From Planctomycetota bacterium (GTDB lineage: Bacteria; Planctomycetota; Planctomycetia; Gemmatales; Gemmataceae): DNA of 36,330 nt. A model generated the notes under the pieces. That model ran no database searches and was not told where the DNA came from. It saw only the letters and a list, made by a program, of their open reading frames with translations. The stretch's first letter is position 1, and every line of letters begins with the position of its first letter. The stretch covers positions 1 through 36,330 of the forward strand of contig JAKBCS010000043.1 of NCBI GenBank assembly GCA_021807595.1, read 5' to 3'. A program made the position numbers and the translations under genes. Shown one piece after another: positions 17,218-26,246 of this stretch.

Positions 17218-17292
17218 GGTGGGTGACGGGATTCGAACCCGCGACTTTCAGAGCCACAGTCTGACGCTCTAACCATCTGAGCTACACCCACC
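17218..17292 (-). tRNA. tRNA-His (anticodon GTG)
   Basis: Reverse strand cloverleaf. The acceptor stem GTGGGTG pairs with CACCCAC; an extra G at position -1 faces discriminator C73, the identity marks of tRNA-His. D arm GCTC...GAGC; anticodon arm TCAGA-CTGTGGC-TCTGA with anticodon GTG; variable loop AAGTC; T arm GCGGG-TTCGAAT-CCCGT. The CCA end is not encoded. It lies 56 bases downstream of the solute-binding protein gene on the same strand. Its 3' end borders the integrase remnant. Confidence 0.96.
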
Positions 17293-25133: not shown

Positions 25134-25154
25134 TCAAGTAATGGGAAAAGGGAG

Positions 25155-25199
25155 AAAAAACAGAGGCCCCACCGCGTGTAACGCGAATGGGAACCTCTG
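25155..25199 (-). terminator. Rho-independent terminator
   Basis: Minus strand: CAGAGG ... CCC ... CGCGT-tac-ACGCG ... GGG ... CCTCTG followed by TTTTTT (25155-25160). The stem has three paired blocks (6, 3 and 5 base pairs). It ends the candidate RNA unit that begins near 25413. Confidence 0.85.
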
Positions 25200-25413
25200 C
25201 CTCGGTGGAGGATGCCGTCGCTCCCCTCCCTCTACCGGCTACCCTTGCGGGTAAATGGCACAGGGAGGGGAGGACCGCGACCGGCGGATACCGAGTGGCC
25301 GCCAGAGGATAAAAATAAGCGGCTTCAAAGGCTTACGCCTACAAGAGGGGAGTGTTGATGGGCGAAGGGAGTGTCGTCGGATTCGCTTTGACCTCATTGT
25401 CCGCGAGCCTCCG
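25155..25413 (-). ncRNA. Candidate structured non-coding RNA, about 260 nt
   Basis: The unit has a promoter-like sequence (25420-25448), a predicted start near 25413 and a strong terminator. Its centre folds into a long rod spanning 25194-25308. From the outside inwards: CCTCTG/CAGAGG, CTCGGT/ACCGAG, GTCG/CGAC with GCC/GGC, CTCCCCTCCCT/AGGGAGGGGAG (11 perfect pairs) and TACCC/GGGTA closed by a GCAA tetraloop. A smaller hairpin AGGC-GTAA-GCCT is at 25329-25340. The CAGAGG at 25194-25199 can pair either with the rod base (25303-25308) or with the terminator (25161-25166). I find no SRP, tmRNA or RNase P signature; the rod shape recalls 6S RNA, but that is only a shape argument. It could instead be the 3' UTR of the small protein gene. 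Confidence 0.45.
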
Positions 25414-25419
25414 TGCTGA

Positions 25420-25448
25420 AAAATAGGTCGCAAACGAGCGTCCGTCAA
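25420..25448 (-). promoter_or_regulatory. Candidate promoter of the structured RNA
   Basis: Minus strand TTGACG (25443-25448), a 17-base spacer, then TATTTT (25420-25425). The -35 box overlaps the last codons of the small membrane protein. Spacing is ideal and five of six -35 bases match. Confidence 0.5.
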
Positions 25449-25633
25449 CTTCGACAGGAGTTCGTCAGACCCGAGTCGCAGCTGTGGATCTGGTCGGCCA
25501 TGACCCACAGCATGTAGACTACTCGCTCGCGCAGCGTGCGTTCGCGTCGCTGGCACGATTGATGGTGGGCGCGCCACAGATAGTAGAGCGTTGCCACAGC
25601 CAGAGCAGCCATGTTCGTCACGATCGGTTGCAT
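25445..25633 (-). CDS. Small single-helix membrane protein
   Basis: 62 residues. The N-terminal part NMAALAVATLYYLW is a transmembrane helix; a basic, helical cytoplasmic part follows (RRERTLRERVVYMLWVMADQI). I recognise the phrase 'RERVxYMLWVMAD' from small planctomycete proteins of unknown function, which supports a real gene despite its size. ATG at 25633 is used; ATG at 25612 is possible, and neither has a strong ribosome binding site. The C-terminal about 12 residues are probably not conserved. It stands alone on the minus strand, divergent from the hypothetical gene at 25776. Confidence 0.6.
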   Translation of the reverse strand: MQPIVTNMAALAVATLYYLWRAHHQSCQRRERTLRERVVYMLWVMADQIHSCDSGLTNSCRS

Positions 25634-25775
25634 GAAAGTCTGCCTGTTGAGGGGATAACCTCGGATATTCCATTCCTAAACGATAGCTTACGCGGGGAAG
25701 GTAAGCAAATCGACGCCGCGGAGTACAATAAAATCGTCCGATGGCGGCGGTGGACGGCTCGGCGAGTTGGGGTGG

Positions 25776-26246
25776 ATGATGTTGGAACATCGCGTGTTGC
25801 TGCTGCGCGCGGGCGCATCTTGTGCCGAACGATCCATCGTCGATGGAGAGAGCGGCGTCCCACTCGGCACGGCGCGGTGGCGGAAAGAGAAGGGCCGTGC
25901 GTGGAGGCGTTGGTTTCGGCGCGGGATTATGGAAGTGCGCGAACGAGAGGACGAACCGTTGGTGTTCACCCTCCGCCGCGCTTGGAGCCTAGCTCCGCGC
26001 CGAGACGTGCGCGATGCCGACGAACAGGAGGTCGGTTTCCTATTGGGGCTTCGCGTCCACGATCGGTTTGGCCGTCCCGTTGCCGATTTTGACAACGGCG
26101 TCTTTCGCGCGCCGTCTCAGCATATCTTGGCCGAGTTGACGACAACGACCGACGGTCAAAATCTGACCTTCGGCAACGACATCGCTGGCGAACCGTTCGT
26201 CAAAATGCTGCTCTTGGCCGCCGTCTTGGCCTTCGGTTCACCGTAA
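25776..26246 (+). CDS. Hypothetical protein, scramblase/LURP-one-like by pattern
   Basis: 156 residues from the ATG-ATG at 25776 (a TTG at 25767 is in frame but unlikely). I do not recognise it with certainty. The middle (about 60-100) has PLVFTLRRAW, RRDVRDADEQEVGFLLG and VHDRFGRPVADFD, a repeating beta-strand pattern seen in tubby-like/phospholipid-scramblase-like (LURP-one-related) proteins. The C-terminus FVKMLLLAAVLAFG is hydrophobic and could be a membrane helix, as in that superfamily. The assignment is by visual pattern only. It is a single gene, followed by inverted repeats. Confidence 0.6.
   Translation: MMLEHRVLLLRAGASCAERSIVDGESGVPLGTARWRKEKGRAWRRWFRRGIMEVREREDEPLVFTLRRAWSLAPRRDVRDADEQEVGFLLGLRVHDRFGRPVADFDNGVFRAPSQHILAELTTTTDGQNLTFGNDIAGEPFVKMLLLAAVLAFGSP

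Follow-up and report, generated by a model that had tools for sequence, protein, structure and literature searches.

Features of the locus

The window, i.e. the whole stretch of 36,330 nucleotides analysed here, contains on its minus strand a region flanked by a Gfo/Idh/MocA gene (25052-23592) and by a previously unlisted ORF of 62 aa (25633-25445), within which a small RNA is predicted. Its start is placed by prediction about 7 nt past the -10 element, and its end corresponds to the U-tract. The features of the region are:

25445..25633, minus strand: 62-aa small membrane-protein-like ORF (LRERVxYMLWVMA), an associated gene outside the RNA
25420..25448, minus strand: promoter TTGACG-N17-TATTTT, with a -35 hexamer that shares bases with the stop codon of the small ORF upstream
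25154..25412, minus strand: predicted small RNA of about 259 nt, delimited by the promoter and terminator positions
25309..25412, minus strand: 5' leader carrying a pair of CUCCC(C) motifs, at 25371-25367 and at 25352-25347, predicted to be mostly unpaired
25281..25305, minus strand: P1 hairpin, CUGGCGG/CCGCCGG, with a loop containing CUCGGU (25295-25290); supported by covariation
25217..25278, minus strand: P2, the 'rod', an expansion, particular to this lineage, of a hairpin which most relatives have in short form
25201..25216, minus strand: linker GGCAUCCUCCACCGAG, identical in 16 of 16 solid members
25214-25207, minus strand: linker part CAUCCUCC, predicted to be single-stranded
25206-25201, minus strand: linker part ACCGAG, complementary to the P1 loop (putative pseudoknot)
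25155..25199, minus strand: P3, intrinsic terminator CAGAGG...CCUCUG followed by TTTTTT; supported by folding energy and a compensatory change

Promoter, terminator and rod had all been proposed in a preliminary description of the sequence, and each of them is found. The hexamers TTGACG (25448-25443) and TATTTT (25425-25420) lie 17 nt apart on the minus strand, in agreement with a promoter scan; together they are the top match within the 200 nt upstream of the core, and outscore 99.5% of Markov shuffles. The terminator hairpin (25199-25161) has a folding energy of -25.1 kcal/mol and is followed by TTTTTT; it is not among the results listed by a simple terminator scan. The rod (25278-25217) is formed, in the MFE fold, by an 11-bp run, CUCCCCUCCCU/AGGGAGGGGAG, and a hairpin closed by GCAA. 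The locus carries two marks of a small RNA gene, a promoter of its own, from which the start is predicted, and an intrinsic 3' terminator.

The minus strand between 25415 and 25150 folds with a predicted energy of -122.6 kcal/mol (z = -5.2), a stability reached by none of 200 shuffles, and the core alone has a z-score of -7.3. Within the leader, a small hairpin, AGGC-GUAA-GCCU, may form at 25347-25325 (minus strand); in the close relative G003 roughly this position is occupied by a different hairpin, GCCAA-GACC-UUGGC.

Of the 95 genomes of the family, 69 contain homologues of the 62-aa ORF. The protein, for which searches of Pfam and NCBIfam matched no family, features one hydrophobic stretch followed by LRERVxYMLWVMA; its gene is often located just upstream of hisF and sometimes occurs in two copies. 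In several genera the small gene is flanked by a divergent gene (25767-26246, plus strand, in the window; L103:2385-2921; L091:946-1386), whose family produced solely a sub-threshold match to Bflower. In several relatives, a gene for a DtxR/MntR-type iron-dependent repressor with a FeoA domain lies near the RNA locus (L091:287-952, confirmed by Pfam; L102:1283-1966 and L109:6298-6975, identified by sequence similarity); it is absent from the window.

Conservation among related genomes

A nucleotide search of 59 relatives revealed a short, strongly conserved block, at about 25217-25155, in several genera. By comparing the related loci a common core of 105-165 nt was recognised (25305-25155 in the window), composed of P1, a variable P2, the invariant linker and the terminator P3. 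A covariance model of the core matched 17 of the 95 genomes of the family and 19 of the 102 of the order, where the first pass of the search scores few candidates per genome, so that absences are not proven. One member from a different order, G159, was added by a class-wide pattern scan (model score 53.7 bits). One coding-like match (G017) was removed and three degenerate copies (G015, G060 and G023) were set aside; the weak model matches L096 and L144, which resemble coding sequence, were also dropped. The resulting 16 solid members, 13 from the family of the window, 2 from a second family of the same order and 1 from a third family, come from 16 genomes with a single copy each, and span 12 genera and 3 families of one class.

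In a set of 84,980 named genomes every occurrence fell within Planctomycetota, including records titled Gemmataceae or Gemmatales. No family member was found in the viral contigs, phages and plasmids searched, and among another 392 genomes drawn from the phylum a strict pattern matched only the window's own. A mobile or repeated element was discarded as an explanation, given the single copy in the genome and the zero matches in phages, plasmids and viral contigs. A protein-coding reading, suggested by an overlapping ORF (25239-25790, minus strand), was rejected as well: in relatives the core shows indels and covarying stems, and no such ORF is seen outside the nearest species.

Comparison of the region with Rfam, proposed in the preliminary description, returned no family, with no meaningful match at the locus under either gathering thresholds or a permissive E<=5; the sole Rfam match in the window is a tRNA gene at 17218-17291 (minus strand). 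The segment 25412-25154 (minus strand) is very probably a conserved, real RNA gene, and the best explanation of the data is that it belongs to a family not yet described, present in Gemmataceae and near relatives.

Secondary structure

Folding z-scores range between -2.3 and -7.3 across all 16 members. In 6 of the 7 pairs of P1 both positions vary in the alignment, which was made without structure information. The covariation score of this stem is 0.419, versus 0.248 in shuffles, none of 500 reaching the observed value; shifting the pairing partner drops it to 0.28 or less. Within the P1 loop UCGG is invariant, usually as CUCGGU. P3 and its U-tract are found in 16 of 16 members, and the stem shows a compensatory exchange of A-U to G-C. 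In a scripted, R-scape-like test two pairs, one in P1 and one in P2, reached E<0.05, a small number, given how little power 16 sequences provide; none remains significant if all column pairs are taken into account. In its direction this test is in accord with the results for P1 and P3.

When the P1 loop is held open, nearly all members form P1, P2 and P3 and leave the linker unpaired; P1 or P2 are formed poorly or differently in G001, G014 and G159. The rod described at first corresponds to P2. It is present and more stable than expected by chance, but it is the least conserved part of the RNA, being expanded in G000 (the window genome) and G003, and independently in G029, and reduced to a short hairpin elsewhere.

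In every one of the 16 members the sequence of the linker segment ACCGAG complements that of the P1 loop, at minimum as UCGG/CCGA (4 core pairs each), and loop and stem lengths are compatible with an H-type pseudoknot. A pseudoknot between P1 loop and linker is probable. Since both sides are nearly invariant, no covariation signal can be expected from them, and we infer this pairing rather than demonstrate it.

Stable folds and long spurious ORFs also arise by chance in GC-rich genomes, and the locus might on these grounds be taken as a functionless intergenic region that happens to end in a terminator. The non-random folding of all members, the identity of the linker across families, the covariation of P1 and the retention of the promoter speak against this; given such conservation, the chance explanation is refuted and hardly credible.

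Promoter and relation to the upstream gene

A promoter of the form TTGAC[ACG]-N17-TAnnnT is located 47-104 nt upstream of the core in 10 of the 16 members. The spacing is always exactly 17 nt, and each of the ten is the best match in the 200 nt upstream of P1; compared with shuffles, all ten have P <= 0.05 and nine P <= 0.01. No own promoter is visible in G001, G002, G006, G007, G029 and G032; in these six members the RNA may be cut from the 3' UTR of the small gene.

This arrangement raises the question of whether the RNA is in general a structured 3' UTR, or terminator, of the mRNA for the small membrane protein, with a cis effect on its stability or processing. Of the 16 solid copies of the RNA, 13 lie behind the small gene, as do the degenerate copies G015, G060 and G023, and in the promoterless G001, G002 and G029 the RNA begins about 25 nt or less from the stop codon. 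However, dozens of copies of the small gene in the family are not accompanied by such an RNA, and ten copies of the RNA have their own promoter. In G014, G030 and G159, moreover, RNA and promoter are retained although no remnant of the small gene is present upstream of them; the G030 locus still includes a gene of a kind that is found next to the small gene in other genomes. A 3' UTR with a cis role is, on balance, rather unlikely.

An independent small RNA, one of the two options of the preliminary description, is supported by the promoter of 10 of the 16 homologues and by downstream genes that are unrelated and often convergent. The conserved promoters, the copies devoid of the small gene and the variety of the downstream genes point together to a separate RNA gene.

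Downstream genes and the terminator

The other option was a regulatory leader, either riboswitch or attenuator, of the Gfo/Idh/MocA gene. This gene lies on the same strand, 103 nt after the terminator, and a Gfo/Idh gene comes next in G000, G001, G003 and G014; the putative loop-linker pseudoknot, adjacent to the terminator, also resembles a riboswitch. Elsewhere, however, the RNA is followed by hisF, by glycerol-3-phosphate-dehydrogenase-like or by tilS-like PP-loop genes, or it faces convergent neighbours, such as genes for phosphofructokinase, an LRR protein or very large proteins. The downstream context thus comprises at least 5 unrelated gene families, several of them convergent. In addition, the Gfo/Idh gene has the promoter-like sequence of its own that had been noted at the outset, TTGACC-N18-TACATT (25133-25104, minus strand), located directly past the terminator and visible also in G001 and G003.

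The terminator itself had been described as switchable, by means of an alternative pairing of CAGAGG (25199-25194) with CCUCUG (25308-25303). The 6-nt complementarity is present, but only 2 of the 16 members, G000 and G002, have the upstream CCUCUG at the equivalent position. Forcing this pairing changes the energy of the full RNA from -122.6 to -114.0 kcal/mol, i.e. 8.6 kcal/mol worse, and its probability is about 2% before the 3' arm of the terminator exists. The switch is therefore rejected, the alternative pairing being both unstable and unconserved. Given the variety of the downstream genes and their frequent convergent orientation, the RNA is not regarded as a leader of the Gfo/Idh gene, a role which appears highly improbable.

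Candidate mode of action

The 5' leaders are rich in short C-rich motifs: 13 CUCCCC are found in 12 leaders, versus 3.0 expected, and none of 500 shuffles reaches this number, an enrichment which could partly reflect the G-poor composition of the leader. Twenty [CU]UCCC motifs have a predicted mean unpaired probability of 0.78, and some of the C-rich motifs of G102, G030 and G014 sit in the loop of a leader hairpin. The motif is absent from the most distant leader, that of G159. The CCUCC contained in CAUCCUCC is the anti-Shine-Dalgarno core. No Hfq gene was found in the genome (assembly about 95% complete), which fits C-rich seeds working without Hfq. Pairing of UCCC(C) seeds with Shine-Dalgarno sequences is an established mechanism of RNAIII and RsaE, the latter of which carries a duplicated UCCCC motif (PMC9217828).

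The accessible C-rich motifs, the precedent of these two RNAs and the failure to find Hfq make translational repression in trans the likeliest function, and a trans-acting C-rich small RNA is the reading we favour, with an estimated probability of about 0.5. The RNA would be started by a housekeeping-type promoter, situated at the end of the small membrane-protein gene or replacing it, and ended by the strong intrinsic terminator. P1, P2, the probable pseudoknot and the terminator would provide a stable scaffold, leaving as working surface the CUCCCC motifs of the leader, as a rule two of them and in some cases placed in loops, perhaps together with the invariant CAUCCUCC. By pairing with other mRNAs at their G-rich Shine-Dalgarno regions, this surface would block translation without Hfq.

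The leader motif is too short for a sequence-based target search. For the invariant linker, a search for conserved complementary targets yielded nothing but coding sequence, including the codons for GILHRD of Ser/Thr kinases, and thus no conserved target. Perfect 14-nt complements (e.g. G000:C280:25334-25347) sit inside reading frames, and 3 of 5 inspected encode GILHRD; the excess of linker complements over a reversed-pattern control is, because of these codons, at least partly a codon effect. The GILHRD coincidence, seen in three relatives, would mislead target searches based on the linker.

Conservation of the linker exceeds what a Shine-Dalgarno seed needs, and may point to a protein- or ribosome-binding role. 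Accordingly, the invariant CAUCCUCC and the pseudoknot could be supposed to mimic or sequester a component of translation, the C-rich leader being secondary. The invariance of 16 nt across three families would agree with such a function, as would the unpaired state of the linker in folds that keep the P1 loop open; against it stand the lack of a known partner and the enrichment of C-rich motifs in the leader as well, and we consider it distinctly unlikely. A dedicated module, in which linker and pseudoknot bind the ribosome or an RNA chaperone of Planctomycetes, is a similarly speculative proposal. Were it true, this RNA would be the first described member of an Hfq-independent regulatory RNA system in the phylum, one linked at its origin to a small membrane protein.

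Small RNAs are nearly uncharted in Planctomycetes: a 2022 survey counted 8 Rfam small RNA families in the whole PVC group versus 345 in Proteobacteria (PMC9029176). A conserved small RNA gene with defined promoter, core and candidate seeds, in a bacterium whose genome yielded no Hfq gene, would offer an entry point to riboregulation in Planctomycetes.

Comparison with known RNAs

The likeness to 6S RNA (RF00013), drawn in the preliminary description, is limited to a rod-like region and a size below 300 nt. The comparison is left unsupported by the lack of an RF00013 match at the locus (gathering or E<=5), and identity with 6S was dismissed, since a separate canonical 6S gene lies on another contig of the same genome (G000:C148:7249-7435, 68.2 bits).

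Pseudoknotted riboswitches with expression-platform terminators have a hairpin loop that pairs with a downstream strand beside the terminator, as the P1 loop and linker may do here. In contrast to them, the RNA described here has no fixed downstream gene, has several convergent neighbours and shows no conserved alternative terminator pairing.

A parallel is offered by RsaE and RNAIII of Staphylococcus aureus (PMC9217828), which, like the RNA predicted here, are independent small RNAs with an intrinsic terminator and repeated C-rich motifs, some of them in loops, that suit pairing with Shine-Dalgarno sequences, and for which Hfq is likely unneeded. There is no sequence homology with these RNAs, which come from a different phylum, and descent from the RsaE family is not indicated, no Rfam small RNA model matching the locus. 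The core of P1, P2 and probable pseudoknot, with its invariant linker GGCAUCCUCCACCGAG, belongs to the Planctomycete RNA and not to RsaE or RNAIII.

Another parallel is found in the CcsR RNAs, whose motif CCUCCUCCC we take to resemble CAUCCUCC and CUCCCC. CcsR1-4 are encoded downstream of ccaF1 in Rhodobacter sphaeroides, and thus also lie directly 3' of the gene for a very small protein; they exist as four copies, released from the ccaF1 3' UTR by cleavage (PMC8625941). The RNA of the window, by contrast, is a single one that usually has its own promoter, and the associated small protein is of membrane type and unrelated to the ccaF1 product.
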